From assembly GCA_030041195.1 (NCBI GenBank), contig JASHOI010000475.1:1-32133 (forward strand): a stretch of 32,133 nucleotides of DNA, written 5' to 3'. The notes below the pieces were generated by a model. That model had not been told where the DNA came from. It made no database searches and saw only the letters and a list, made by a program, of their open reading frames with translations. The position numbers and the translations under genes are program-made. This document shows positions 11,135-24,953 of the stretch, in pieces; within the stretch, counting starts at the first letter, position 1; each line of letters begins with the position of its first letter. Origin of the DNA: Streptosporangiaceae bacterium. GTDB lineage: Bacteria; Actinomycetota; Actinomycetes; Streptosporangiales; Streptosporangiaceae.

Positions 11135-11626
11135 ATGTACCAGCCCTACCCAACCTCGGGGCAGATGCCCGGGCCGCCGCAGCGCCCGACCGCGCCCAAC
11201 TCTGTGCAGACAGCCGTCAAGCTCATGTACGCCGGCGCAGCCCTCAGCGTGATCGAGCTCATCGTGAGCCTGGCCACCGTGGGCAGCCTGAAGAGCGCCA
11301 TCATCAAGAAGTTCCCGCACGACACCGCGTCCCAGGTGCACTCGTACGAGGTCGCGATCGTGGCCGGCGTGGTGATCGAGGCCGTGATCGCGATCGGCCT
11401 GTGGCTCTGGATGGCCAGGGCCAACCAGGCGGGCCGCAACTACGCCCGGATCACCGGGACGGTGCTGTTCGCCATTTACACGCTGTTCCTGCTGGTCGAC
11501 CTGCGGCGCCCCGCCGCCAGCATCGGGCTGATCTTCTCGCTGCTGGTGTGGCTGGCCGGCCTCGGCGCGGTGATCATGCTGTGGCGGAGGGAATCGAGCG
11601 AGTACTTCAGCCCGCGTGTGCAGTAA
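11135..11626 (+). CDS. Small four-helix membrane protein of unknown function
   Basis: 163 residues with a strong ribosome site (AAAGGAG before ATG 11135). The N-terminus is Pro/Gln-rich (MYQPYPTSGQMPGPPQRP), followed by four predicted transmembrane segments: LMYAGAALSVIELIVSLAT, VAIVAGVVIEAVIAIGLWLW, ITGTVLFAIYTLFLLVDL and IGLIFSLLVWLAGLGAVIML. The arrangement is typical of small actinobacterial membrane proteins with a proline-rich cytoplasmic head. I recognise no functional motif. Its last 20 bp overlap the 3' end of the convergent ROK regulator gene, so the two messages are antisense to each other at their ends. Confidence 0.8.
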   Translation: MYQPYPTSGQMPGPPQRPTAPNSVQTAVKLMYAGAALSVIELIVSLATVGSLKSAIIKKFPHDTASQVHSYEVAIVAGVVIEAVIAIGLWLWMARANQAGRNYARITGTVLFAIYTLFLLVDLRRPAASIGLIFSLLVWLAGLGAVIMLWRRESSEYFSPRVQ

Positions 11627-12896
11627 GCCGGACCAGCCGCGCCCAGGCCAGGTCGGCTCCGGAGGCCAGGCACCCGTCCACGACCGCGTCGGTTCCGAGC
11701 GCGCTCACCCGCACCTCGGGCAGCACCGGCGACAGCATCCGAAGCTCGGCGGTCACCGCGGCCGAGAACCCGGGAGCCTGGCCGATACCCCCGCCTAGCA
11801 CGACGAGCTCCGGATCGACGACGGTGACCACGGCGCTGATCGCCTTGGCCACCAGGCGCGCCTCGGCGGCCACCACCGCCACGGCCCGCTCGTCGCCCCT
11901 GGCCGCCGCGGCGAACACGCTGCGCGCCGACACCGGTCCGCGCATGCCCGCCCGCCGGGCGGCGCGCACCACCGCCGGAGCCGACCCGGCGGCCTCGAGC
12001 GTGCCCCTCCTGCGCGCGTCCTGCTCGTCGGCGCCCTCGCCCTCCGAGATCGGCATGTAGGCGATCTCCCCGGCCACCCCGTGCGCCCCGCGGTGCAGCC
12101 GGCCATCGAGGACCAGGCCCAGCCCGATGCCACTGCCGATCCACACGAACGCGAAGCTGGCGAACTCGCTGCCGTGCCCGTGCGTGCGCTCGGCCAGTGC
12201 CGCGGCGTCGACGTCGTTCTCGATGACCAGGCCCTGCCCGAACGCGTCGCGCAGGCCGGCCAGGACCGCCGGGCGGCTCAGGCCGGACAGGCCTCCGGTG
12301 AGCGCCATCGCGCCCCGCCTCGGGTCGTAGACGCCCGGGCTGCCGATCACGGTCTGGGTGATCGCGTCCCTGGCGACCCCGGCGTCGGCGCACAGCGTGT
12401 CCGCGAGCCGGATCAGTTCGGCGACCCGGCCGCGCACGCTGGAGGCCCTGGTCCTGGCCGAGTGCTTCGCCCGGATCTCGCCGGTGAGGTCGGCGAGCGC
12501 GCCGCGCAGGTAGTGGTGGCCGATGTCGAGGCCCAGCACGAACCCCGCGTCCGGGCTGATCTCGAACAAGCGCGCTGACCGGCCGGGCACCCCGGTGCGC
12601 TGCCCGGCGATCCTGATCAGGCCGGAGCGCTCCAGGTTGGCGAGGGCCAGCGAGACGGTTGGCTTGGAGAGGCCGGAGAGCCGGGCCAGCTCGGCGCGCG
12701 AGCACGGCCCGAGCTGGCGGATGTGGCCGAGCAGCAGCTGCTCGTTCAGCGCCCGGATGAGCTGCGGCCTCGCGGCCTGCCCGTTGAGCTGGTCGGCCGC
12801 TGCCACGCCGCGGAACTCGCCGATGGGCTCGGCGGCGCCGGGCTCGGCGACGGCCACCTCGGCGACCCCGGCTGCGTCGGCTGACGTACTAGTCAA
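11607..12896 (-). CDS. ROK-family transcriptional repressor of the sugar locus
   Basis: 429 residues. An N-terminal winged helix-turn-helix at about 60-100 (CSRAELARLSGLSKPTVSLA, then NLERSGLIRI) is fused to a ROK kinase-like sensor domain starting FVLGLDIGHHYLRGAL (about 119-134), with IENDVDAAALAERTHG and WIGSGIGLGLVLDG further on. These proteins bind palindromes and are released by a sugar or sugar phosphate. The usual ROK zinc cluster (CxCGxxGCxE) is missing: after HGVAGEIAYMPI the sequence contains no cysteines. The TTG at 12896 is chosen because GAGGAGG stands 6 bp upstream, which decides the start. A palindrome identical in core to one in the divergent promoter lies 67 bp upstream, so autoregulation and control of the neighbouring genes is the natural reading. 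The 3' end overlaps the convergent gene by 20 bp. Confidence 0.92.
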   Translation of the reverse strand: MTSTSADAAGVAEVAVAEPGAAEPIGEFRGVAAADQLNGQAARPQLIRALNEQLLLGHIRQLGPCSRAELARLSGLSKPTVSLALANLERSGLIRIAGQRTGVPGRSARLFEISPDAGFVLGLDIGHHYLRGALADLTGEIRAKHSARTRASSVRGRVAELIRLADTLCADAGVARDAITQTVIGSPGVYDPRRGAMALTGGLSGLSRPAVLAGLRDAFGQGLVIENDVDAAALAERTHGHGSEFASFAFVWIGSGIGLGLVLDGRLHRGAHGVAGEIAYMPISEGEGADEQDARRRGTLEAAGSAPAVVRAARRAGMRGPVSARSVFAAAARGDERAVAVVAAEARLVAKAISAVVTVVDPELVVLGGGIGQAPGFSAAVTAELRMLSPVLPEVRVSALGTDAVVDGCLASGADLAWARLVRLTAHAG

Positions 12897-12962: not shown

Positions 12963-12987
12963 ATAGTTAGGATACTATCCTAACTAT
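12963..12987. promoter_or_regulatory. 25-bp palindromic operator, copy 1 (ROK regulator promoter)
   Basis: ATAGTTAGGATA (12963-12974), a single central C (12975) and TATCCTAACTAT (12976-12987) form a perfect 12-bp inverted repeat, strikingly AT-rich for this genome. It lies between the GH4 stop and the ROK regulator start. A second copy with one changed base sits at 15472-15496. Confidence 0.9.
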
Positions 12988-12997
12988 GCGGCGTCAC
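12969..12997 (-). promoter_or_regulatory. Predicted promoter of the ROK regulator gene
   Basis: On the minus strand GTGACG (12997-12992) and TATCCT (12974-12969) are separated by exactly 17 bp, matching a sigma-70-type layout. The -10 and most of the spacer lie inside the palindrome, so a bound repressor would exclude polymerase. Confidence 0.6.
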
Positions 12998-13011
12998 TGA
13001 TCGTGTCCGGA

Positions 13012-14400
13012 TTATCGCAAGTAGCTAAGATGCTCGCCGTGCGCCGCGCGGTACTCGGCGACCAGTTCGCGGGCCGCGGTGATCCCGGGAACCAGCGGAT
13101 GCTGGGCCAGCGCCACGCCCGCCAGGCCGGCATCGCCGCTCATCGCCGCCTCGACGACGCCCCGCTCGTACTCTTTCACTTGCTCGACCAGGGCCTGGCC
13201 GGATCGCGGCAGCCCCCGCACCGGAAGCGGGGACACGCCGTCGGCGGTGATCACGGCCGGCACCTCCACGATGTCATCGGGGTCGAGGAAGCCCAGGCTG
13301 GCATCGTTACGGGTGTTGACGATCACCTCCCGCTGCCCGCCGCCGGACAGGCCGTCGATGACCTGCAGCGCCAGCCCTTCATACCCGCCGATCTGCGCCG
13401 CGGCGAGCTGGGCCGGGCCCCGCGCGGCCCGCCGGGCGCGAGCCTCGCCCTGCCCGCTGTCGCCCTCGGTATCGGTCCTCATGTACGTGTCACGGCGCAC
13501 GCCGAGCAGCATCTCGTACGCCGACCACGCGGCGTCGGTGCCGTCGTCCAGCGCCTTGGCCACGGCGGCCAGCAGCTCGGCGTTCAGGCGCAGCACGTCC
13601 TGGCCCCGGCTGGCGCCCGCCCTGGCGACCTCGCCGACGTAGCGCCCGCCGTCGTAGAAGTAGTAGACGTACTCGGTCGGTATCGCGCCGACCCGGCGCA
13701 CCATGGCGGGGTCGAAGGCCGCGAACCGGTGGTCGAAACGCTGCAGCTCCTCGAATCTGGCCAGCAGCTCGCCGATCCGCTCTTCGCCGCCGACCTGCAC
13801 CGAGCAGACCCAGCCCAGGTGGTTCAGGCCGCCGTAGGACGCCGAGACCGCGGCGTCCCCGGCCTCAAGGAACTCGGCCAGCCGCCCGACCGTGCCGCCC
13901 GGGGTGTCGCAGACCCCGACCGCCCGCACCTTGCCCTGCGCCGAGATGGCCTGCGTGATCAGGCCGGCCGGGTTGGTGAAGTTGATCAGTACCGCGTCCG
14001 GCGCGCAGCGGCTGAGCAGGTCGCAGTACGACAGCACCACCGGGATCGTGCGCAGCGCCATCGCGCATCCGCCGGGTCCGGTCGTCTCCTGGCCGACGAT
14101 GCCGCGCCGCAGCGCGACCTCCTCGTCGATGACCCGGCCCCGGTCGCCGCCGACCCGGACCGCGGAAAACACGTAGCCGGCGCCGGTGAACGCCTCGGCC
14201 GGGTCCGGCGTGACCGTGACGGCATCGGGATGGCCGAGCGCCGCCGCGATCCCCGACGCCAGCCGGCAGATCGTGTCCCTGCGCCCGGCATCGGGCTCGA
14301 ACAGGCAGATCTCGTCGAAGGTCCCTGGCCGGCCGGACAGCACGGCCCGCACGAACGCGGGCATCCGGACGCCGCCGCCGCCGAGGATCGCAAGCTTCAC
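13012..14400 (-). CDS. Glycoside hydrolase family 4 enzyme (6-phospho-glycosidase type), intact copy
   Basis: 462 residues from GTG 14400 (MKLAILGGGGVRMPAF). GH4 enzymes are cytoplasmic and use NAD+ and a divalent metal in a redox-elimination mechanism, mostly on 6-phospho-alpha- or beta-glycosides. Visible: the Rossmann glycine loop GGGGVRMP (7-14), NFTNPAG (140-146), the metal-ligand cysteine in VGVCDTP (Cys164), the metal-ligand histidine in GLNHLGW (His194), and a Tyr in the IPTEYVYYFYD region (about 240-250), where the catalytic base Tyr lies in characterised members. The length fits the family. The start overlaps the PfkB kinase stop (GTGA), giving translational coupling, and both are transcribed away from the divergent operator. 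The frame extends upstream into the kinase gene, but that part is a shadow. The exact sugar is not readable. Confidence 0.92.
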   Translation of the reverse strand: MKLAILGGGGVRMPAFVRAVLSGRPGTFDEICLFEPDAGRRDTICRLASGIAAALGHPDAVTVTPDPAEAFTGAGYVFSAVRVGGDRGRVIDEEVALRRGIVGQETTGPGGCAMALRTIPVVLSYCDLLSRCAPDAVLINFTNPAGLITQAISAQGKVRAVGVCDTPGGTVGRLAEFLEAGDAAVSASYGGLNHLGWVCSVQVGGEERIGELLARFEELQRFDHRFAAFDPAMVRRVGAIPTEYVYYFYDGGRYVGEVARAGASRGQDVLRLNAELLAAVAKALDDGTDAAWSAYEMLLGVRRDTYMRTDTEGDSGQGEARARRAARGPAQLAAAQIGGYEGLALQVIDGLSGGGQREVIVNTRNDASLGFLDPDDIVEVPAVITADGVSPLPVRGLPRSGQALVEQVKEYERGVVEAAMSGDAGLAGVALAQHPLVPGITAARELVAEYRAAHGEHLSYLR

Positions 14401-15362
14401 TGGCCGGTCTCCCTTTCCGCCGTCTTGTACGCGGCCGCGGCCGCCACCTGGTCGATGAATCTCGCGCCGGGCGTCTGGCCGACGGCGGCGATCCCGGAAA
14501 CATCGACCTCGCCGACCGCGCCGAGCCTGGCCACCGCCTCCGAGCCGGCGGCGTTCGCCGCGACCACGGCATCGGTGAGCGGAACCCCCCGCACCAGCGC
14601 CGCGATCAAGGCCCCGGCAAAGGCGTCGCCGGCCCCGGTCCGGTCCCTGACCGTGACCTGCCGCACCCCGTCGGCGACCTCGGTGATCCCGTCCGGGCTC
14701 GCGATCACCGCGCCGGCCGCACCGCGCGTCACCACCAGCGGCGTCCCCCACGGAGCCGCCGCCGACAGCGCAGGGCCCAGGGCATCCGTGCCGGTCAGGC
14801 GCTGTATCTCGTCCTCGTTGGGCAAGAACACGTCGGCCAGCCGGACGCAGTCGATGATCGCGTCGGCGGCGTCACGCTCGTCGCCCAGCGAGACGTCGAG
14901 CGCGATCTTGCTGCCCAGCTCGCGGGCTTCCCGCAGGAACTCGGCCATGCCCGGGCCCCCGTGCACGTAGCACCAGCGCGGCCTGGCCTGGCGGAGCACC
15001 GCCCGCCAGCGGCCGATCTCGTGCTGCCGCCGCCGCTTCGGGATGTTGCTGACGAAGGCCCGGTCACCGTCGAAGTTCAGCACCACCGTGACCCCGGCCG
15101 ACCGGCGGCGTACCCGCACCGACGGGGACAGGTCTACGCCGACCCGCGCGCAGTGCTCGATCACGACGCGCGAGCCGAGGTCGTCCCCGAGGACCGTGCA
15201 CAGGCCGGCCCGGGCCCCCGCCCTCGCCGCCGCGCTGGCGCTGTTGACCGCCCCGCCGCAGGAGAACGCGAACTCCTCGGTGAAGACCTCCTCGCCGGGC
15301 CGGGGAAGCTCCGGCACGTGGCCGAAGACAAGCTCGAGGAAGACCGAGCCGAATGAGATCAT
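14397..15362 (-). CDS. PfkB-family sugar kinase
   Basis: A ribokinase-like carbohydrate kinase of about 321 residues, starting at ATG 15362 (MISFGSVFLELVFG). The N-terminal substrate-binding motif appears as FAFSCGGAVNSASAAARAGA. The C-terminal PfkB signature is VRDRTGAGDAFAGALIAALV, with the catalytic Asp of GAGD and the anion hole. The family phosphorylates ribose, fructose, tagatose-6-P, aminosugars and others; the substrate is not defined here. TTG 15368, 10 bp after GGAGG, is an alternative start, since ATG 15362 is 16 bp from that site. It is the first gene of the leftward operon and is coupled by 4-bp overlap to the GH4 gene. Its promoter lies at the second palindrome. A TATCCT -10 (15483-15478, minus strand) lies inside that operator. 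Confidence 0.9.
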   Translation of the reverse strand: MISFGSVFLELVFGHVPELPRPGEEVFTEEFAFSCGGAVNSASAAARAGARAGLCTVLGDDLGSRVVIEHCARVGVDLSPSVRVRRRSAGVTVVLNFDGDRAFVSNIPKRRRQHEIGRWRAVLRQARPRWCYVHGGPGMAEFLREARELGSKIALDVSLGDERDAADAIIDCVRLADVFLPNEDEIQRLTGTDALGPALSAAAPWGTPLVVTRGAAGAVIASPDGITEVADGVRQVTVRDRTGAGDAFAGALIAALVRGVPLTDAVVAANAAGSEAVARLGAVGEVDVSGIAAVGQTPGARFIDQVAAAAAYKTAERETGQ

Positions 15363-15471
15363 GTCCAAGCTAGCTGTCCCTCCAGCACTGCCAGCCAGCA
15401 CCGCCAGCCTCCGTCATGTCCGGACAAGGTAGCCGTGGTCACAGTTCGGCCACGGGTCTGTGCCTGTCTGG

Positions 15472-15496
15472 ATAGTTAGGATACTGTCCTAACTAT
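15472..15496. promoter_or_regulatory. 25-bp palindromic operator, copy 2 (divergent promoter region)
   Basis: ATAGTTAGGATA (15472-15483), central C, then TGTCCTAACTAT (15485-15496): identical to copy 1 except G for A at 15486. It stands between the leftward kinase/GH4 operon and the rightward kinase/transporter operon, 31 bp before GTG 15527. One bound repressor could control both directions. Confidence 0.9.
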
Positions 15497-15526: not shown

Positions 15527-16549
15527 GTGATCGTGGCGGCTTCCCCGGTCGTGCTCGGCCTAGACTACGGCGGCACGAAGATCGCCGCCGCCGTGGGCGA
15601 CCTGACCGGCAAGCGGCTGGCGTCGGTCACGACCGCCAGCGACGGCGCGCTCGGGGCGCAGGCCAGCTTCGCCCGTGGCATCGAGGCAGCGCGCGACCTG
15701 CTGCGGGCCACCGCGCCGGGCAGCGAGCTCGCCGCCGTCGGCGTGTCCACGTTCGGGATCCCGTTCGAGGACCGGGTCGAGCTGGCGCCGGCCATCGACG
15801 GCTGGGACAGGCTGGCGATGGGGCGCGAGCTGCGCATCGCGTTCGCCGGAGCGCAGATCAGGATGGCCACCGACGCCAAGGCGGCGGCCCAGGCCGAGGC
15901 CCGCTGGGGCGTGCTGGCCGGCCATGATCCCGCGGTCTTCCTGAACCTGGGCACGGGGCTGGCCGCCGCCGTCGTGATCGGCGGCCGGGTCGTGAGCGGC
16001 GTCAACGGTGCGGCCGGCGAGATCGGCTACAACCTGCGCTCGGCCGCCGACGTCGGCCTGCCGCTGGACCGGCGCCCGCTGCTCGAGCAGATGGTCAGCG
16101 GCCAGGCACTGGCCGAGCGGGCCGCCGAGCGCGGCAAGCAGCTCACGGCCGCGGACGTGTTCGCCGCCGCCGCCGCGGACAGCGACCTGGACGGCCTGAT
16201 CGACGACTTCGTCGACGAGCTGGCGTTCCACCTGGTGAACCTCGCGATCCTGGTGAACCCGGCACGGATCGCGGTCGGCGGCGGCATCGTCCGGTCCTGG
16301 GCCCGGATCCGGCCACGGCTGCAGCACGCGCTGCGGGCAGGCACCCCGTTTCCCCCCGAACTCGTCGTCGCGCACTTCCCGTACGACGCGCCGCTGCTCG
16401 GTGCGGTGGCGATGGCCGTGGACGCGGCGAACGGCCGCGCCGCGGTCCCGGCCAGCCGCGACGCGACGCCGCGCGATGCCACGCCGGAGGACGCGACGCC
16501 GCGAGACACCCTGCATCAGGACACCATCAACACCGGCACGCTGTCATGA
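15527..16549 (+). CDS. ROK-family sugar kinase
   Basis: 340 residues. The ATP phosphate-1 motif VLGLDYGGTKIAAAVGD starts at about residue 9. The catalytic-Asp region reads RMATDAKAAAQAEARWG (Asp116, where most ROK kinases have NDANAAA), then FLNLGTGLAAAVVIGG. There is no separate helix-turn-helix, so it is an enzyme rather than a regulator. The zinc cluster of classical ROK glucokinases is absent after GAAGEIGYNL. The last 30 residues are repetitive (three RDATP/EDATP units) and probably disordered. GTG 15527 is taken as start; GTG 15533 is an in-frame alternative with equally weak ribosome-site support. It is the first gene of the rightward operon and would phosphorylate the imported sugar so that GH4 enzymes can act. 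Confidence 0.88.
   Translation: MIVAASPVVLGLDYGGTKIAAAVGDLTGKRLASVTTASDGALGAQASFARGIEAARDLLRATAPGSELAAVGVSTFGIPFEDRVELAPAIDGWDRLAMGRELRIAFAGAQIRMATDAKAAAQAEARWGVLAGHDPAVFLNLGTGLAAAVVIGGRVVSGVNGAAGEIGYNLRSAADVGLPLDRRPLLEQMVSGQALAERAAERGKQLTAADVFAAAAADSDLDGLIDDFVDELAFHLVNLAILVNPARIAVGGGIVRSWARIRPRLQHALRAGTPFPPELVVAHFPYDAPLLGAVAMAVDAANGRAAVPASRDATPRDATPEDATPRDTLHQDTINTGTLS
16457..16501 (+). repeat. Three 15-bp imperfect tandem repeats at the kinase C-terminus
   Basis: Units at 16457-16471, 16472-16486 and 16487-16501 encode RDATP, RDATP and EDATP, followed by RDT. The repeat is in frame and lies beyond the ROK fold. Confidence 0.85.
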
Positions 16550-16673: not shown

Positions 16674-18353
16674 ATGAGACGCCTTAAGGCAATCGGGGTC
16701 CTCATCGCGGCGAGCGCGCTGGCGGCCGCCTGCAGCTCCGGCAGCTCATCGCCATCGTCATCCACGGCATCGGGCCCAAGCGGCGTGCTGACCATCGATA
16801 ACGAGAGCGGCGGCACCTGGACCTGCGACTTCAATCCGTTCAACCTGAGCTATCTCCCGTATTCGCTCGGGCCGGTCTACGAGCCGCTGGCGTTCGTCAA
16901 CACGCTGGAGAGCGGGAAGGCGACGCCGTGGCTGGCCACCAGCTGGTCCTGGGGCGCCGGCAACAAGACGCTGACCTTCACGATCCGCAAGGGGGTGAAG
17001 TTCACCAACGGCAACCCGCTGACGCCGGCGGACGTGGCCTTCACCTTCAACCTGCTCAAGAAGTACCCGACCCTGGACATCAACGCGGTCTGGTCGGTGC
17101 TGTCCAGCGTCACCACGTCCGGGTCCGACCAGGTGGTGATGACGTTCAAGACCGCGGCGGTGCCGTACTTCTACTACATCGCCGACCAGATCGGGATCGT
17201 CGACCAGTCCGTCTGGTCCAAGGTCTCCAACCCGGTGACCTACCCGGACAAGAACCCGGTCGGCACCGGTGCGTTCAAGACCGGCAGCAGCGACTGCACG
17301 CCGCAGAACATCAAGTACGTGGCCAACACGCACTACTGGCAGCCGGGTGAGCCCAAGGTGGGCACGGTCAACTACCCGGCGTTCCTCACCAACGACACGG
17401 CCAACACCTACCTGGCCAACGGCCAGGCCCAGTGGGGCAGCCAGTTCATCCCGAGCATCCAGAAGTTCTACCTGTCCCGTAGCTCGAGCTTCCACTACTG
17501 GTTCCCGCCGGTCGCGAACGTCAGCCTGTTCATCAACCTGACCAACCCGATCCTGAAGAACGTGGCGGTCCGGGAGGCGATGGCCTACGCGATCAACCGG
17601 CAGCAGGCGTCGACGATCGGCGAGTACGGCTACGAGCCGGCCTCGAACCAGACCGCGATCGTCACCCCGACGTTCTCCAGCTGGCTGGACACCTCGCAGG
17701 CGGCGACCTACGGCAGCAACTACGCCTACGACCCCGCCAAGGCGATATCGATCCTGGAGAAGGCCGGCTTCAAGAAGGGCTCGGACGGCATCTTCCAGAC
17801 CCCGTCCGGCCAGCCGCTGTCGTTCACGATCCTGAACAACGGCGGGTTCTCGGACTGGGTGGCCGCGGTGCAGACCATCCAGACCAGCCTCAAGGCGGTC
17901 GGGATCCAGGTCACCCCGGAGAACCTGGCGGCGACCAGCTACCAGACCGACCTGTACACCGGCAAGTACGAGCTCGGTTACGGCAGCGAGACCGGCGGGC
18001 CCACCCCGTACTTCGAGCTGCGGCAGCTGCTGTACTCGGCCAACTCGGCACCGATCGGCACGGCGGCCGGCTCCAACTGGGAGCGGTACAGCAACCCGGC
18101 CACCGACGCGCTGATCAACGAGTACGGCGCGACCACCAACCCGGCCACCCAGCACTCGATCGTGGACCAGCTGGAGAAGGTCATGCTGGACGACGTGCCG
18201 GTGATACCGGTCACCGAGGAGGTCGACTGGTACCAGTACGACACCAGCAGCTTCACCGGATGGGTCACGAAGAGTGACCCGTATGCGCAGCCTGCCGCCT
18301 ACAACTACCCGGACTGGGGCCAGATGCTGCTGCACCTGGCGCCGGCCAAGTAG
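16674..18353 (+). CDS. ABC importer substrate-binding lipoprotein, family 5 (Opp/Dpp type)
   Basis: 559 residues with a lipoprotein signal: MRRLKAIGVLIAASALAAAC, lipobox LAAAC with the lipidated Cys at residue 20, then a Ser-rich tether. The mature part is a family 5 solute-binding protein. The signature region is seen as WGAGNKTLTFTIRKGVKFTNG, then PLTPADVAFTFNLLKKY. Later AVREAMAYAINRQQ and DDVPVIPVTEEVDWYQYD are typical. Besides peptides, this family imports oligosaccharides (cello-, xylo- and chito-oligomers in other bacteria). In this sugar-enzyme setting an oligosaccharide is the most likely ligand. A good ribosome site (GGAAGGG) precedes ATG 16674. It follows the ROK kinase by 124 bp and is followed by a strong hairpin, which may raise its mRNA level relative to the permeases. 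Confidence 0.92.
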   Translation: MRRLKAIGVLIAASALAAACSSGSSSPSSSTASGPSGVLTIDNESGGTWTCDFNPFNLSYLPYSLGPVYEPLAFVNTLESGKATPWLATSWSWGAGNKTLTFTIRKGVKFTNGNPLTPADVAFTFNLLKKYPTLDINAVWSVLSSVTTSGSDQVVMTFKTAAVPYFYYIADQIGIVDQSVWSKVSNPVTYPDKNPVGTGAFKTGSSDCTPQNIKYVANTHYWQPGEPKVGTVNYPAFLTNDTANTYLANGQAQWGSQFIPSIQKFYLSRSSSFHYWFPPVANVSLFINLTNPILKNVAVREAMAYAINRQQASTIGEYGYEPASNQTAIVTPTFSSWLDTSQAATYGSNYAYDPAKAISILEKAGFKKGSDGIFQTPSGQPLSFTILNNGGFSDWVAAVQTIQTSLKAVGIQVTPENLAATSYQTDLYTGKYELGYGSETGGPTPYFELRQLLYSANSAPIGTAAGSNWERYSNPATDALINEYGATTNPATQHSIVDQLEKVMLDDVPVIPVTEEVDWYQYDTSSFTGWVTKSDPYAQPAAYNYPDWGQMLLHLAPAK

Positions 18354-18406: not shown

Positions 18407-18463
18407 AGGAGGACGAATGTGCGTCAGGAGGAGCGCGTGACGCGGGCGGGCAGCACAGCATGA
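18407..18463 (+). promoter_or_regulatory. Two overlapping mini-ORFs with own ribosome sites leading into the permease
   Basis: AGGAGGA (18407-18413) precedes ATG 18417, which encodes MCVRRSA and stops at 18438-18440. The tandem AGG AGG Arg codons of this mini-ORF form a second AGGAGG (18426-18431) in front of GTG 18437, which overlaps the first stop as GTGA. That second frame encodes MTRAGSTA and stops at 18461-18463, overlapping the permease start as ATGA. The permease itself has no good ribosome site, so translation may be handed down this chain. Confidence 0.5.
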
Positions 18464-19446
18464 GGTTCGTGCTGCGCCGCCTGGGCTTCTTCGTGCTGAC
18501 GCTGTGGGTGGCGGTCACGCTCAACTTCCTGCTGCCGCGGATGATGCCGGGCAACCCGGCCCTCGCGGTGCTGGGCAAGTTCAAGGGCGCGGTCCCCCCG
18601 CAGGCGCTCAAGGCGCTCGAGGCGCAGTTCGGCCTCGACACTCACCAGAGCCTGGTCACGCAGTACGGCCACTACCTCGGCGACCTGGCCACCGGCAACT
18701 TCGGGGTCTCGCTGACCACCGAGCCGGGGACGTCGGTCGCGCAGATCGTGATGCACGCGATCCCGTGGACGCTCGGCCTGGTGGGGATCACCACGGTGCT
18801 GGCGTTCATCCTCGGCACTCTCATCGGCATCGTCGGCGCCTGGCGGCGGGGCGGCCGGCTCGACAGCATCATGCCGCCGATCTTCGTGATCATGACGGTG
18901 ATCCCGTACTTCTGGATCGGCCTGATCCTGATCCTGATCTTCGGCGTGAAGCTGCACTGGCTGCCCTACTTCTTCAGCTACAACTACACGCTCACCCCGG
19001 CGTTCTCGTGGACGTTCATCGGCAACGTGCTCGAGCACGCGATCCTGCCCGGTTTCACGCTGCTGATCACGACGATCGGCACCTGGATCCTCACCATGCG
19101 CAACACCATGATCACCACACTGGCCGAGGACTACGTCCGGATGGCCCGCGCCAAGGGCCTGCCCGGGCACCGGATCATGCTCGATTACGCCGCCCGGAAC
19201 GCGATCCTGCCGAACCTGACTGGCTTCGCCATGTCGTTGGGCTTCGTGGTAGGAGGCGCCATCCTGATCGAGGAGGTCTTCAACTACCAGGGCGTGGGCT
19301 ACCTGCTGCTGCAGGCCGTCAACAACGAGGATTACCCGCTCGAGCAGGCGCTGTTCCTGCTGATCACCGTCGCCGTGCTGGTGGCGATCCTGCTCTCGGA
19401 CATCGCGACCGCGGTGCTCGACCCGCGGACCAGGGCGGCGAGGTAG
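18460..19446 (+). CDS. ABC importer permease, OppB/DppB type
   Basis: 328 residues beginning MRFVLRRLGFFVLTLWVAVT, with the short N-terminal helix then periplasmic loop that is typical of the OppB family, and about six membrane segments. The EAA coupling loop is visible as EDYVRMARAKGLPGHRIMLDYAARNAILPNL, where the ATPases dock. The VVGGAILIEEVFNYQGVGYLLLQAV stretch near the end is a family hallmark. It pairs with the next gene as a heterodimeric channel. The start is ATG 18460, which lies within the ATGA overlap of an upstream mini-ORF and has only a weak own ribosome site. The next gene begins 2 bp after its stop. Confidence 0.93.
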   Translation: MRFVLRRLGFFVLTLWVAVTLNFLLPRMMPGNPALAVLGKFKGAVPPQALKALEAQFGLDTHQSLVTQYGHYLGDLATGNFGVSLTTEPGTSVAQIVMHAIPWTLGLVGITTVLAFILGTLIGIVGAWRRGGRLDSIMPPIFVIMTVIPYFWIGLILILIFGVKLHWLPYFFSYNYTLTPAFSWTFIGNVLEHAILPGFTLLITTIGTWILTMRNTMITTLAEDYVRMARAKGLPGHRIMLDYAARNAILPNLTGFAMSLGFVVGGAILIEEVFNYQGVGYLLLQAVNNEDYPLEQALFLLITVAVLVAILLSDIATAVLDPRTRAAR

Positions 19447-19448
19447 CC

Positions 19449-20432
19449 ATGACCACCACCGAGATTCCCGGCGCCCCCGGCGAGCCGCCGCTTGCGCCCG
19501 GGATAGCCGGCGGCCTGCCGCTCGGGGGCGGCGGAATAGCGGGCGCCCGCTCGCTGCGTCGCATGGCCCGCGCCGTGACCGCGAACCGGAAGGCGACCGC
19601 CGGCATCCTGCTGCTGGTGCTCTTCTGCCTGGTGGCCGCGTTCCCCGGGGTCATCGCGCACGACAACCCGAACGCCGAGATCTACCCGCGGTCCCTCGGC
19701 ACCCCGTCGGCCGCGCACCTGCTCGGCACCACGAGCTTCGGCCAGGACATGTTCGCCCAGGTCGTCTACGGCACGCGCCCGGTGCTGCTGATCGCGTTCG
19801 GGGTCGGGCTCGGCGCCACGATCATCGCGATGCTGATCGGCGTGGCCGCCGCCTACCTGGGCGGGGTCTGGGACGGCGGGCTCAGCCTGTTCATCGACGT
19901 GCTGCTGGTCATCCCGGCGTTCCCGCTGCTGATCATCATCGGCAGCTACCTGCACGGGGCGACCACCGGCGTGATGATCGCGGTCGTCACGGCGGTCTCG
20001 TGGTCCTACACGGCGCGCCAGCTGCGCGCCCAGGCGCTGTCGCTGCGCGGCCGTGACTTCCTCGAGGCCGCGCGGGTGCGCGGGGAGCGGGCGCTGTACA
20101 TCATCGTCGTGGAGATCATCCCCACGATGACCTCGCTGCTGGTGGCCAGCTTCCTGACCAACGCGCTGTACGCGGTGCTGTTCTCCTCCAGCCTGGAGTT
20201 CATCGGGCTCGGCGACCCGAACCAGGTCAGCTGGGGCACGATGCTGTACTGGGCGGAGAACAACGAGGCGTTCCAGACCGGCCTGCCCTTGTGGATCATC
20301 GTGCCAGGCCTGTGCATCGTCGCCCTCGGCGCCGCGTTCGCGCTGCTCAACTACGCGTTCGACGAGATCGGCAACCCGGCGCTGCGGCCGGTCCGGAGCA
20401 TGCGGGGGATGCGTGTCAAGCGGGTCAGGTAG
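19449..20432 (+). CDS. ABC importer permease, OppC/DppC type
   Basis: 327 residues from ATG 19449 (MTTTEIPGAPGEPPLAPG) with a GGCGAGG ribosome site. A flexible Gly/Pro-rich N-terminus precedes the OppC_N-type helix (MARAVTANRKATAGILLLVL). HLLGTTSFGQDMFAQVVYGTR is the family's periplasmic loop signature, and the EAA loop reads LEAARVRGERALYIIVVEII. The same frame is open upstream to 18504, but that stretch is antisense-like shadow within the previous permease. The end overlaps the first ATPase gene by 20 bp, indicating tight coupling. The sequence is complete, with no missing motif. Confidence 0.93.
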   Translation: MTTTEIPGAPGEPPLAPGIAGGLPLGGGGIAGARSLRRMARAVTANRKATAGILLLVLFCLVAAFPGVIAHDNPNAEIYPRSLGTPSAAHLLGTTSFGQDMFAQVVYGTRPVLLIAFGVGLGATIIAMLIGVAAAYLGGVWDGGLSLFIDVLLVIPAFPLLIIIGSYLHGATTGVMIAVVTAVSWSYTARQLRAQALSLRGRDFLEAARVRGERALYIIVVEIIPTMTSLLVASFLTNALYAVLFSSSLEFIGLGDPNQVSWGTMLYWAENNEAFQTGLPLWIIVPGLCIVALGAAFALLNYAFDEIGNPALRPVRSMRGMRVKRVR

Positions 20433-21405
20433 CGAGCCGATACTGGTCGTCCGCGACCTGTCGGCGGAGTACGTGATGGAGCGCGGCATCGTCGGCGCGG
20501 TCGACCAGGTCAGCTTCGACCTGGACCCCGGCGAGTTCCTCGGCATCGTCGGCGAGTCCGGCTGCGGCAAGTCCACCCTGCTGTTCGCCGTCGCCCAGCT
20601 GCTGGCCTCGCCCGCCCGCATCAGCGGGGGCAGCGTGGCCTTCAAGGGGCAGAGCATGGTGGGGCTGACCGACAAGCAGCTGGCGGCGGTCCGGTGGAAG
20701 AACCTCTCGGTGGTGATGCAGAGCGCGATGAACGCGCTGAACCCGGTGAAGTCGATCGGCGCGCAGTTCAAGGACGCGATGCGGGCGCACGGCGTGGCCG
20801 ACAAGGAACAGATCGCCGCGCGCTCGGCCGAGGTGCTGAAGATGGTCGGCATCGACCCGATCCACCTGAAGAGCTACCCGCACCAGCTATCCGGCGGCAT
20901 GCGCCAGCGGTCGATGATCGCGATGGCGATGCTGTTCACGCCCGACCTGGTGATCATGGACGAGCCCACGTCAGCGCTCGACGTGGTCGCGCAGCGCTCG
21001 CTCATGGTCCAGATCAAGGAATTGCAGGACGAGCTCGGCTTCGCCGTCATCTTCGTCACCCACGACATGTCGCTGGTCAGCCACTTCTCCGACCGGCTGA
21101 TGGTGATGTACGCGGGCCAGGTCGCGGAGTTCGGGCCCACCCGGAAGGTGTTCGACGCGCCGCAGCACCCGTACACCATCGGCCTGATGGAGGCGTTTCC
21201 CTCGATCAGGGGCCCCCGGGTGCCGCTGACCGGCATTCCCGGCAGCCCGCCGAACCTGGCCAACCCGCCGCAGGGCTGCCGGTTCGCCCCGCGCTGCCCC
21301 AAGGTCATGGCCCGGTGCCGGCAGGAGTGGCCGGAGCTGTACCACGTCAACGGCACGCTGGTGCGCTGCCTGCTGTACGCCGACGGAGAGGCCGGCCATG
21401 AGTGA
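20413..21405 (+). CDS. ABC importer ATPase, OppD/DppD type
   Basis: 330 residues from GTG 20413. Walker A is GESGCGKST at residues 47-55. The signature loop reads QLSGGMRQRSMIAMA and Walker B is DLVIMDEPTSALD, followed by the H-loop FVTHDMSLVSHFSD. The C-terminal oligopeptide-transporter extension is present with its cysteine motif CRFAPRCPKVMARC, which in this subfamily can bind an iron-sulphur cluster. It works as a heterodimer with the next gene to energise uptake. It overlaps the permease gene by 20 bp upstream and the second ATPase gene by 8 bp downstream, so the four membrane/ATPase genes form one coupled block. Confidence 0.94.
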   Translation: MSSGSGSEPILVVRDLSAEYVMERGIVGAVDQVSFDLDPGEFLGIVGESGCGKSTLLFAVAQLLASPARISGGSVAFKGQSMVGLTDKQLAAVRWKNLSVVMQSAMNALNPVKSIGAQFKDAMRAHGVADKEQIAARSAEVLKMVGIDPIHLKSYPHQLSGGMRQRSMIAMAMLFTPDLVIMDEPTSALDVVAQRSLMVQIKELQDELGFAVIFVTHDMSLVSHFSDRLMVMYAGQVAEFGPTRKVFDAPQHPYTIGLMEAFPSIRGPRVPLTGIPGSPPNLANPPQGCRFAPRCPKVMARCRQEWPELYHVNGTLVRCLLYADGEAGHE

Positions 21406-22402
21406 ACCGCCCGTCCTGCTGCGGACCGCGGGGCTGACCAAGCACTTCAGGATCGGCGGGGCGCTGTCCCGGCACACGCTGCACGCCGTTGACGACGTCA
21501 GCATCTCGGTCGGCGAGCGGCAGATCGTCGCGCTGGCCGGGGAGAGCGGCAGCGGCAAGAGCACGCTCGCCCGGCTGCTCGCCCGGCTCTACAAGCCGAC
21601 CGGGGGCGAGATCATCTACCAGGGCAGGCCGCTGTCCGCGGTGCGCTCCCGGGCCGACCTGCTTCGCTACCGGGGCGACGTGCCGATGGTGTTCCAGGAC
21701 CCGTTCGCCTCGATCAACCCGGTCTTCCGGGTGTCCCACGGCGTGCTGCGGTCCCTCAAGCTGCACCGCCCCGACCTATCCCCCGTCCGGCGCCGCGAGG
21801 AGGCGGAGCGGGTGTTCGAGGCCGTCGGGCTGACGCCAGCCGCGGAGGTGCTGCAGCGGTTCCCGCACGAGCTGTCCGGCGGCCAGCGGCAGCGGGTCGG
21901 CTTCGCCCAGGCGCTGGCGCTGCGGCCGAAGCTGATCCTGGCCGACGAGCCGGTCTCGATGCTCGACGTGTCGATCCGGATCGGGCTGCTCAACCTGATG
22001 AGCCAGCTGCGCGACGAGCAGGGGGTGTCGATCCTGTACATCACCCACGACATCGCCAGCGCCCGGTACGTCGCCGACCGGCTGATCATCATGTACGCGG
22101 CGCGGATCGCCGAGCAGGGCCCGTCGGAGGAGGTGCTGGCCAGCCCCAGGCACCCGTACACGCAGCTGCTGCTGTCGGCCGTGCCCGACCCGCGGGCGCC
22201 GCTCACGATCGGGGCCGAGACGGACCGCGGCGAGCCGCCGCGGGTCATCGACCCCACTCCCGGCTGCCGGTTCCGCTGGCGCTGCCCGCTGGCGATCGAC
22301 GAGTGCGGCCAGGTGACGCCCGAGCTCGACGAGCTCGCCCCCGATCACGACGTGGCCTGCCACGTGGCCCGCTCCGGCGCCGAAGTGAAGGCATTCGGAT
22401 GA
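21398..22402 (+). CDS. ABC importer ATPase, OppF/DppF type
   Basis: 334 residues from ATG 21398. Walker A is GESGSGKST at 48-56. The signature is HELSGGQRQRVGFAQALALR and Walker B reads LILADEPVSMLD, followed by ITHDIASARYVADR. The C-terminal extension has CRFRWRCPLAIDEC, parallel to the cysteine motif of its partner. Compared with most OppF proteins, which have DEPVSALD, it has MLD; this is a known variant in sugar-associated members. The stop TGA at 22400-22402 overlaps the ATG of the second GH4 gene (ATGA at 22399), so the glycosidase was designed to be translated with the transporter. This supports a sugar cargo. Confidence 0.94.
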   Translation: MSEPPVLLRTAGLTKHFRIGGALSRHTLHAVDDVSISVGERQIVALAGESGSGKSTLARLLARLYKPTGGEIIYQGRPLSAVRSRADLLRYRGDVPMVFQDPFASINPVFRVSHGVLRSLKLHRPDLSPVRRREEAERVFEAVGLTPAAEVLQRFPHELSGGQRQRVGFAQALALRPKLILADEPVSMLDVSIRIGLLNLMSQLRDEQGVSILYITHDIASARYVADRLIIMYAARIAEQGPSEEVLASPRHPYTQLLLSAVPDPRAPLTIGAETDRGEPPRVIDPTPGCRFRWRCPLAIDECGQVTPELDELAPDHDVACHVARSGAEVKAFG

Positions 22403-23699
22403 AGCTCGCGGTCATTGGCGGCGGGTCTACCTACACCCCGGAACTGGTCGACGGCGTGGCCAGGCTGGCCGGGGACGTCAGTGCTGCCCGGGGGGACGAC
22501 CCCCCCAGACCCCCCCGATAAAGGTCACCGAGCTGGTGCTGGTCGACCCGGATCAGGCCCGGCTGGACGTGGTCGGACCGGTCTCGGCCAGGATCATGCA
22601 GCGTTACCGGCACCCGGCGCGGCTGCGCTGGACGGCCAGCCTGGACGACGGCCTCGACGGGGCGGCCGCCGTACTGCTGCAGCTTCGCGTCGGCGGGCAG
22701 GCGGCCCGGCAGCGCGACGAGACCTGGCCGCAGGAGTACGGCTGCATCGGGCAGGAGACCACCGGGGCCGGCGGGCTGGCCAAGGCGCTGCGCACCGTTC
22801 CGGTGGTCCTCGACATCGCCGAGCGGGCCCGCCAGCGGGCCCTGGCGGACGCGTGGATCATCGACTTCACCAACCCGGTGGGAATCGTCACCAGGGCGCT
22901 GCTCGACGCCGGGCACCGCGCGGTCGGCCTGTGCAACGTGGCCATCGGGTTCCAGCGCGAGTTCGCCCGGCTGCTCGGCGTGCAGCCGGAACGTGTCGCG
23001 CTCGACCACGTCGGCCTGAACCACCTGACCTGGGAGCGCGCCGCCGTCGTCGACGGCACCGACGCCCTGCCCGGCCTGATCGCGGCGCACGGCGAGGCGA
23101 TAGCGGTCCACACCGGGCTGCCGCTGTCCGTTACGGCCCTTCTTAAGGCCGTCCCGTCGTATTACCTGCATTACTACTACGCGCATGACGCGGCCGTGGC
23201 CGAGCAGCGCGGGCGGCCGACCCGCGCCGAGGAGGTCGCCGGGATCGAGCGCGAGCTGCTGCAGCTTTACGCCGACCCGGCCCTGGACCGCAAGCCGGAA
23301 CTGCTGACCCACCGCGGCGGCGCCTTCTATTCCGAGGCGGCGGTGGCGCTGCTCGCCTCGCTGGTCAGCGACGCCCGGGACCGGCAGGTGGTGAACGTGC
23401 GCAACGCGGGGACGCTGCCGTTCCTTGACGACGACGCGGTGATCGAGGTCCCGGCCGTGGTCGGCGCCGGCGGCGCCGAGCCGGTGCCGGTGGCCCCGCT
23501 GGACCCGATCATGCGCGGGCTGGTCGCGCACGTGTCGGCGTACGAGGACCTGGCCGTGGACGCGGCGCTGCGCGGCGGAGCCGACCGGATCCGGGCCGCT
23601 CTGCTGGCCCACCCGCTGGTCGGCCAGTACGATCTGGCGAACCAGCTCACCGACCGGCTGATTGCCGAGAACGCGCGGTACCTGCCGTGGGCAGTGTAG
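22399..23699 (+). pseudogene. Second GH4 glycosidase gene, reading frame interrupted near the N-terminus
   Basis: ATG 22399 gives MKLAVIGGGSTYTPELVDG, the GH4 Rossmann start, but this frame stops at TAA 22519-22521. The rest of the enzyme continues in the -1 frame from about 22510 through TELVLVDPDQARLDVVG to 23699. The body has the GH4 hallmarks: NPVGIVT, metal-ligand Cys in VGLCNVAIGFQ, His in VGLNHLTW, and the PSYYLHYYY tyrosines. The spacing from the GGGS loop to the conserved VDPD is 45 residues if joined, against 31 in the intact paralogue in this window. The extra 41-42 nt, a G-run/C-run hairpin with a final C7, look inserted. Either the gene is dead, or the frame is restored by -1 slippage on C7, or the assembly has an error. 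Restart at GTG 22536 would lack the NAD loop. Confidence 0.8.
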
Positions 23700-23723: not shown

Positions 23724-24953
23724 GTGAGCGACGAGCCCGGCGCGCCGCTGCCAGCGGTGCTGGCCGTCGACGGCGGCAACAGCAAGACCGACGTGGCCCT
23801 GGTCGCCGGCGACGGGACGCTGCTGGGCAGCGCCCGCGGCCCGGGGGTGCCCGGGGTGCTCAGCCTGGAGCAGACGATCGGCGTGCTCGGCTCGGTGGCG
23901 CGCCAGGCGGCCAGCCAGGCAAACCTGTCCCCGGGCGGGACCGGCGGCCAGCGGATCGCCCGGCACCTGTCGGCATGCGTGGCCAACGCCGACCTGCCCG
24001 AGGAGGAGCAGCGGCTCACCGACGCGCTGCGCGCGGAGGGCTGGACCGACAGCACGCACGTGGCCAACGACACGTTCGCCGTGCTGTGGGCCGGCCTGGA
24101 CGGCCCGGGCCCGCACTGGGGCGTCGCGGTCACCTGCGGTGCGGGGATCAACTGCGTCGGCGTGGCCCCGGACGGGCGGACCGTCCGGTTCCTGGCGCTC
24201 GGGCCGCTGACCGGCGACTGGGGCGGCGGGCACACGCTGGGCACCGAAGCCGTCTGGTGGGCGATCCGCGCCGAGGACGGTCGCGGCCCGCAGACCGCGC
24301 TGCGCGAAGCCGTGGCCTCTTACTTCGGCACGCCGAGCGTGCAGGACGCCGCGGTCCGGTTCCACACCGGGACGACGAGCTGGGAGGCGCTGCTCGGTCT
24401 GGTCCCGGTCCTGTTCGAGGTGGCGGCGGCGGGAGACGCGGTCGCGCTGGATCTGGTCCGCAGGCAGGCCGCGGAGGTGTGCACGATGGCGGTCAGCGCG
24501 ATGCGCCGCCTCGACCTGTTCGGGCAGCCGGTGCCGGTGTCGCTGGGCGGCGGCGTGCTCACCGCGCGCGATCCGCTGCTCACCGCCGAGATCACCAAGC
24601 GGTTCGCGGAGGAGGCCCCGCTGGCGCGGCCGCGCATCGTCGACATCCCGCCGGTGGCAGGCGCGGCCCTGCTGGGCCTGGACCAGATCGGGGCGCCGGA
24701 GTCCGCCCTGGCCCGGCTTCGCGGCGCTTACCTAGGAGCCCGCGAGCAGGTAGCAGGCGATCGCCGCCGCCGAGGCGACGTTGAGCGAGTCCACGCCCCG
24801 GCGCATCGGAATCCGGACCGGGACGTCGGCCTGATCCCGCCAGCGCGCCGAGAGGCCGTCGCCCTCGGTCCCGAGCAGCAGCGCGAGCCGGCCGTCCGGC
24901 TCCGCCCGCAGGTCGCCGATCGGCCCGGCGTCCGGCGCCGGGGTGAGCGCTAG
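23724..24953 (+). CDS. BadF/BadG/BcrA/BcrD-type ATPase, N-acetylglucosamine-kinase-like
   Basis: ASKHA-fold kinase. Phosphate-1 motif VLAVDGGNSKTDVALVAGDG is at about 12-31, with the phosphate-2-like region VTCGAGINCVGVAPDGR and the adenosine motif VSLGGGVLTARDPLL. This family includes eukaryotic-type GlcNAc kinases and bacterial GlcN/GlcNAc kinases, so it hints at an amino sugar as cargo or breakdown product. The frame is 409 residues long, but family proteins are about 320-340. The conserved part ends near LARLRGAYLG (24738). The last 70 or so residues are Arg-rich and run antisense through the 3' third of the TrmH-like gene, so they look like stop-codon loss. A TAG in the +1 frame at 24733-24735 would give the normal end. 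It follows the GH4 gene by 24 bp and is probably the last gene of the operon. Confidence 0.85.
   Translation: MSDEPGAPLPAVLAVDGGNSKTDVALVAGDGTLLGSARGPGVPGVLSLEQTIGVLGSVARQAASQANLSPGGTGGQRIARHLSACVANADLPEEEQRLTDALRAEGWTDSTHVANDTFAVLWAGLDGPGPHWGVAVTCGAGINCVGVAPDGRTVRFLALGPLTGDWGGGHTLGTEAVWWAIRAEDGRGPQTALREAVASYFGTPSVQDAAVRFHTGTTSWEALLGLVPVLFEVAAAGDAVALDLVRRQAAEVCTMAVSAMRRLDLFGQPVPVSLGGGVLTARDPLLTAEITKRFAEEAPLARPRIVDIPPVAGAALLGLDQIGAPESALARLRGAYLGAREQVAGDRRRRGDVERVHAPAHRNPDRDVGLIPPARREAVALGPEQQREPAVRLRPQVADRPGVRRRGER

Follow-up and report, generated by a model that had tools for sequence, protein, structure and literature searches.

A variant of the CsnR-box as the probable operator of a ROK-family repressor at a transporter locus of Streptosporangiaceae

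The window, that is, the whole stretch of 32,133 nucleotides analysed here, contains two near-identical 25-bp palindromes that are very likely a real operator pair. Comparison of the locus with its relatives makes it probable that both are operators of a CsnR-type, sugar-responsive ROK repressor encoded beside them (11607-12896, minus strand), and that the whole mechanism proposed below holds. The earlier note on this DNA had presented the pair as the mark of a new ROK regulon; we found instead that the site is, judged by its sequence, a new variant (a dialect) of the published CsnR-box, the operator of the chitosanase repressor CsnR and thereby of a kind already described from soil bacteria that degrade chitosan. 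The CsnR-box has the consensus AGGAAANTTTCCT, of which positions 5 and 9 are reported as the most important for CsnR binding, and CsnR is described as the repressor of its own operon, whose binding is weakened by chitosan oligomers, most strongly by (GlcN)2 (PMC6097792). A published construct of the Kitasatospora N106 chitosanase gene is reported to carry the CsnR operator CTAGTTAGGAAACTTTCCTAACTC with the palindromic box AGTTAGGAAACTTTCCTAACT (PMC3048496). Among the open-licence papers found in a literature search, none described the variant box.

Copy 1 (predicted operator, 12963-12987, minus strand) is a perfect palindrome with 12-bp arms around one base, ATAGTTAGGATA-C-TATCCTAACTAT, located between the stop codon of a family 4 glycoside hydrolase gene (GH4a) and the start of the regulator gene; read in the regulator orientation, it has T/A at positions -2/+2. 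Copy 2 (predicted operator, 15472-15496, minus strand), ATAGTTAGGATACTGTCCTAACTAT, differs from copy 1 by a single base, at 15486, and the identity between the copies runs one base beyond the 25-mer, to 26 nt. A search with the 25-mer at up to three mismatches found only copies 1 and 2 in the window and nothing in 100 dinucleotide shuffles. Apart from the two copies, no inverted repeat of the window combines arms of 12 bp and a 1-base loop with fewer than two mismatches, a uniqueness that holds for this loop length, further repeats appearing at others. The results also showed that the 25-mers are AT-rich islands, with a GC content of 28% (copy 1) and 32% (copy 2) compared to 71% for the window. 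Copy 2 lies between the divergent PfkB-GH4a and ROK kinase/transporter operons. In all these respects the description given in the earlier note (the coordinates, one perfect copy and one single-base variant, the AT-richness, and copy 2 between a leftward PfkB-GH4 and a rightward kinase-transporter operon) agrees with the letters and the gene calls.

By Pfam, the regulator has a ROK domain (PF00480, 7e-36) and an N-terminal winged HTH (MarR_2, 2e-7, above the cut-off), which places it among the ROK-family transcriptional regulators; its gene starts at a TTG at 12896 behind GAGGAGG. Inspection by eye showed that the N-terminal phosphate motif of its ROK domain is not kinase-like and that the cysteines of what we take to be the zinc-site motif of this domain are absent, both as in the csn-type regulators compared below, and its role would be ligand-sensing and non-catalytic. 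The same strand carries GH4a (13012-14400, ending at 13012; the start at 14400 was picked by homology, a longer frame being present) and a PfkB-family sugar kinase (14397-15362, with a likely ATG start at 15362 and a longest frame reaching 15401). On the plus strand, the transporter operon begins with a ROK-family sugar kinase without HTH (15527-16549), followed by an SBP_bac_5 (Opp/Dpp-type) substrate-binding protein (16674-18353), two Opp-type permeases (18460-20432, comprising 18460-19446 and a C-terminal match in the ORF ending at 20432), two Opp-type ATPases (20413-22402, at 20413-21405 and 21398-22402), a second GH4, GH4b (22399-23699, main frame from 22536), and a BadF-type kinase (23724-24953), all assigned by Pfam. 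The GH4b frame that opens at the ATG 22399 stops at 22519-22521 beside C/G runs, and the conserved domain lies in another frame from 22536; this break (22399-22536) reflects either a mistake in the assembly or a disrupted gene. About 220 bp of the BadF frame (24732-24953) also lie in a SpoU methylase frame on the opposite strand, and the end of the BadF frame may not be real because homology to the csn-type kinases ends near residue 337 of 409. For nine proteins of the locus, no listed NCBIfam model scored up to its cut-off (the list for the ATPase covering 25 of 187 matches), and a DNA search of plasmids gave just short matches of 67-75%, in 13 records.

We then compared the locus with its relatives. 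A search with the regulator alignment gave 213 loci, of which 80 were kept; 49 of them (L001-L049) were studied, the remaining 31 being 27-33% identical. A site scoring at least 20 was present within 420 bp upstream of the regulator match in 40 of the 49 relatives, with a weight matrix that rewards A at +2 and so cannot prove A there, compared to 1 of the 484 further 420-bp segments taken from these loci; this top-scoring control segment (33.1) may be a true second site. A clear site lies just outside the 420-bp region in L007. No clear site was found in the other eight (L015, L038, L039, L040, L045, L046, L047 and L049), which carry regulators 41-64% identical to that of the window; in L049 the opposite strand reaches a score of 19.1. 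The strict pattern GTTAGGAYANTRTCCTAAC, with at most one mismatch, was detected in 26 of 345 genomes of the order, compared to one genome for the reversed-pattern control, with a single copy in 25 genomes and three in G001. It adjoins genes of the window-type locus in 25 of the 26 genomes, the exception being G322, whose site, one mismatch off, lies between GH5-type and beta-helix genes. The same scan found no strict site in G004 and G009 although both have the locus. The earlier note had named loss of the palindrome from related species that keep the locus as a result against its reading; most of the relatives studied retain the site.

Because the strict site sits at the locus in 25 of 26 genomes, it appears to act as a local operator and not as a dispersed regulon element. 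The expectation of hits upstream of secreted glycanases was not borne out: no exact strict site was found at such a gene in the 345 genomes of the order, and G322 supplied the one near-match. As for numerous unrelated hits, the strict form is nearly absent elsewhere, whereas a loose pattern matched 95 of 394 genomes of the class; its off-locus matches are partly chance, since the reversed control also matched about 36 genomes (hand count). These data bear on whether the palindromes are operators at all. Occurrence at the locus and once per genome, save in G001, contradicts a repeat element or chance, the latter being opposed by the 100 empty shuffles as well. Terminator hairpins would fit copy 1, just past a stop codon, as a repeat would fit two near-identical palindromes in one window; a scan of both copies showed no terminator-like site, and divergent genes flank copy 2 as well as the single sites of the orthologous loci. 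We regard terminators, a repeat element or chance as extremely improbable.

Two further groups of sites were noticed. Close variants of the family site occur around position 1500 of four 3-kb loci from four other genomes (L153-L156), ahead of another SBP_bac_5-type gene (26-28% identical); the variant is GTTAGGACAGTAACCTAAC in L154-L156, with one further change in L153, no ROK regulator match was found within these loci, and a nadA-like gene lies on the far side of the site in L155. A second near-perfect palindrome, ATAGTTAGGAACACTTCCTAACTAT, was seen at L115:3613-3637 (also in L005 near 15642), about 6 kb from the locus on the same contig and near a GH18-like gene.

The common plan of the locus has a single site between the regulator gene, pointing one way, and the SBP_bac_5 operon, with or without the ROK kinase, pointing the other. 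In the window and in L009, PfkB-GH4a lies between the regulator and the transporter operon, with one site at each end. L110-L113, from four other genomes, have the site between SBP_bac_5 and PfkB; L110 and L112 continue from PfkB to GH4a and then to the regulator, and L113 continues from PfkB to GH4a. A second site was not found in L110 and L112, and the contigs of L111 and L113 end earlier. PfkB-GH4a is at the far end of the operon in L039 and L046. We infer that a second copy was gained to leave the regulator, once separated, with an operator of its own. L001 and L009, from the same MAG (G001), carry two versions of the GH4a-regulator end, with regulators 89% and 90% identical to that of the window, reflecting either a recent duplication or a strain mixture.

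To define the consensus, we aligned 24 sites in the regulator orientation. Two belong to the window, and the other 22 come from relatives whose site is strict or nearly so; L010, L015, most of L017-L049 and the short loci L082-L108 did not enter the alignment. The alignment gave the consensus GTTAGGACAGTATCCTAAC, near invariant from -9 to +9, with A at +2 in 24 of 24 sites and, at -2, C in 21 and T in 3. Copy 2, read on the minus strand, is identical to this consensus, and the rarer T at -2 sits in copy 1, the perfect palindrome. Kribbella and other more distant relatives mostly have A at both -2 and +2. By this alignment, the operator of the family is asymmetric and keeps one orientation, and its reference is copy 2 and not the perfect copy 1 from which the earlier reading had set out.

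The fixed orientation was compared with possible promoters. The earlier note had placed a -35/-10 pair of the regulator gene on copy 1, probably GTGACG-17-TATCCT (8/12 by count). A simple scan found no promoter-like site on copy 1 and none passing at copy 2, and a -35 in the regulator direction was not significant over 18 orthologous sites, with 177 of 2000 shuffles reaching the observed score, so that this placement is not upheld. In the operon direction, a -35-like hexamer stands 16-19 bp before a TACTGT inside the site, with a summed score of 73 over 21 sites (the three regulator-side copies, W_c1, L001 and L009c1, were left out), whereas 2000 shuffles had a mean of 52 and a maximum of 64. 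This significance is overstated, because the -10 and the spacer range were picked post hoc from the alignment, the shuffles preserve base composition alone and the sites are related; the hexamer before copy 2 in the window itself is weak (3/6). The data are suggestive of a promoter in the transporter direction that overlaps the site. Conserved asymmetry and fixed orientation would also fit directional contact with RNA polymerase, if the local ROK protein bound the sites as an activator or a dual regulator. Overlap with the predicted operon-direction -10 fits steric repression, and CsnR is reported to repress its own operon (PMC6097792), which makes this alternative quite unlikely in our judgement compared with simple repression.

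Positions 5 and 9 of the CsnR-box correspond to -2 and +2 here and are exactly the two positions at which the window site differs; its cores at the box position, AGGATACTATCCT and AGGATACTGTCCT, do not fit the CsnR-box consensus. Two comparisons left +2 free (N), unlike the weight matrix. In the first, 18 genomes were scanned with N at both -2 and +2, which gave 30 sites compared to 2 in the control; by hand count, all 18 locus sites had C-or-T/A, in related genomes and hence not as independent events, and the 12 off-locus sites had A/T in 10, C/T in 1 and T/A in 1. The second used 41 deduplicated regulator/box pairs, keeping the best box with at most five mismatches and dropping regulators without a recognised HTH motif or box (the box of L145 is doubtful). 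A was present at +2 in 29 of the 30 pairs from the locus group, while the 11 others had A/T in 10 and C/T in 1 at -2/+2.

A CsnR-like paralogue (E <= 1e-60) was detected in 12 of the 20 genomes tested that carry the locus. In 10 of the 13 paralogue loci, the 500 bp upstream contain GGAAANTTTCC; the box of L149 departs from it by one base, that of L139 reads GGACACTTTCC, and no box was found in the 232 bp of upstream sequence present in L142. Such a paralogue could read the window sites as ordinary CsnR-boxes, from which they differ at just two core positions, with the local ROK protein acting elsewhere or weakly here. The base at +2 separates the locus group from the other pairs, the changed positions are those reported as critical for CsnR (PMC6097792), and 8 of the 20 locus-bearing genomes gave no CsnR-like match at this threshold (genome completeness unstated). 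We consider reading by a paralogue unlikely, and binding by the local regulator is preferred. The matched part of the paralogue in L144 contains a single in-frame TAA. Directly before GH20 genes at L118:5756 and L120:6700, in genomes that carry the window-type locus as well, we also saw CsnR-like boxes, each with one change in its core.

Two candidate determinants of specificity in the regulator were considered. Residue 84 of the HTH, which is A here and L, M or V in regulators of the CsnR type, fits 39 of the 41 pairs as the setter of the +2 base and is not sufficient, with L172 a clear counterexample (A at 84, A/T box); L038 also fails, probably from a wrong box assignment, and the link is confounded with ancestry. 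A Gln in the recognition helix was dropped, since some proteins closely related to the window regulator have it as well.

Among 246 genomes of the class, 4 had exact CsnR-type boxes, at 5 sites in total. A ROK regulator adjoins the box at four of them (L130, L131, L132 and L134), with GH4 and BadF genes further on, and the fifth (L133) showed no match to the locus proteins searched. These four clusters are called csn-type by gene content, and the identities given here refer to their genes. Like them, the window has a GH4 and a saccharide kinase in its operon: GH4b is 64-68% and BadF 51-54% identical to their genes, whereas GH4a is 33% identical. A transporter of the CsnEFG type is not present; the window has SBP_bac_5 with Opp-type permeases and ATPases, whereas both csn-type clusters tested (L130, L131) have an SBP_bac_1/8 binding protein. 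GH4b relatives (55-81%) close the operon, or lie nearby, in several other loci. The window regulator is 34-37% identical to the ROK regulators of the csn-type clusters, compared to 55-90% to those of L001-L044. Because GH4b and BadF are related to csn-cluster enzymes, a glucosamine-type oligosaccharide is a likely substrate; this draws on two genes, with a transporter of another class, and we give such a compound about an even chance of being the ligand.

From the features seen by comparison (the site, its locus specificity and orientation, the change at -2/+2 and the common GH4 and kinase genes), we propose how binding, repression, ligand response and insulation from the paralogues may work. 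Without ligand, a ROK dimer on copy 2 would block the kinase/Opp-transporter/GH4b/BadF operon, the site overlapping the predicted -10, and PfkB-GH4a on the other side would probably be blocked likewise. On copy 1, the ROK protein would keep its own production in check. The repressor would be released when a glucosamine-type beta-oligosaccharide enters the cell, either by this compound or by the first product made from it inside. The change from A/T to C-or-T/A at -2/+2 of the CsnR-box should insulate the local repressor from the CsnR-like paralogues that many of these genomes also encode. The earlier proposal that the ROK protein represses itself and both operons through this site is supported by the site being kept with the locus and nearly absent elsewhere at the strict level, and not by a regulator promoter on copy 1. 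A bolder reading, which we put forward tentatively as somewhat short of an even chance, is a dialect switch, in which one actinobacterial cell would hold two lineages of ROK repressors for amino-sugar polymers, separated by A/T versus C-or-T/A at -2/+2 of a palindrome that both share; the dialect of the locus would be fixed in an oriented, asymmetric site that includes the -10 of the transporter operon. The analysis predicts that uncultured Streptosporangiaceae and their relatives have a regulator-transporter system for glucosamine-type oligosaccharides, and gives its operator to the base; no description of such a system was found among the open-licence papers. The locus also lends itself to a natural test of the way in which ROK paralogues distinguish near-identical operators, at two positions already reported as important for CsnR, and indicates that loose CsnR-box searches will mix two regulons.

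Among known systems, NagC and Mlc of Escherichia coli are likewise ROK regulators of sugar metabolism with a winged HTH, and Mlc is among the solved structures matched; they are distant in sequence, and their operator differs from the window site. RokB (SCO6115) of Streptomyces coelicolor is another actinobacterial ROK regulator with mapped binding sites, but a perfect inverted repeat is reported to be missing from two of its genomic sites, and its regulon points towards a role in amino acid metabolism (PMC4856308). The CsnR/CsnR-box regulon of Streptomyces lividans and S. coelicolor (csnREFGHK, csnA) shares with the window a ROK repressor (a predicted one in the window) with HTH, a palindrome (GTTAGGAnAnTnTCCTAAC) ahead of the repressor's own gene, and an operon with an ABC transporter, a GH4 and a kinase, the window GH4b and BadF being related to csn-type cluster enzymes. 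In contrast, no exact strict window-type site was seen at secreted enzymes, the regulator is only 34-37% identical to those of the csn-type clusters, the transporter is of the Opp-type SBP_bac_5 and not the SBP_bac_1/8 type, and the window adds ROK and PfkB kinases and a second GH4. The operator itself differs from the CsnR-box in being asymmetric and in having C-or-T/A in place of A/T at core positions 5 and 9.
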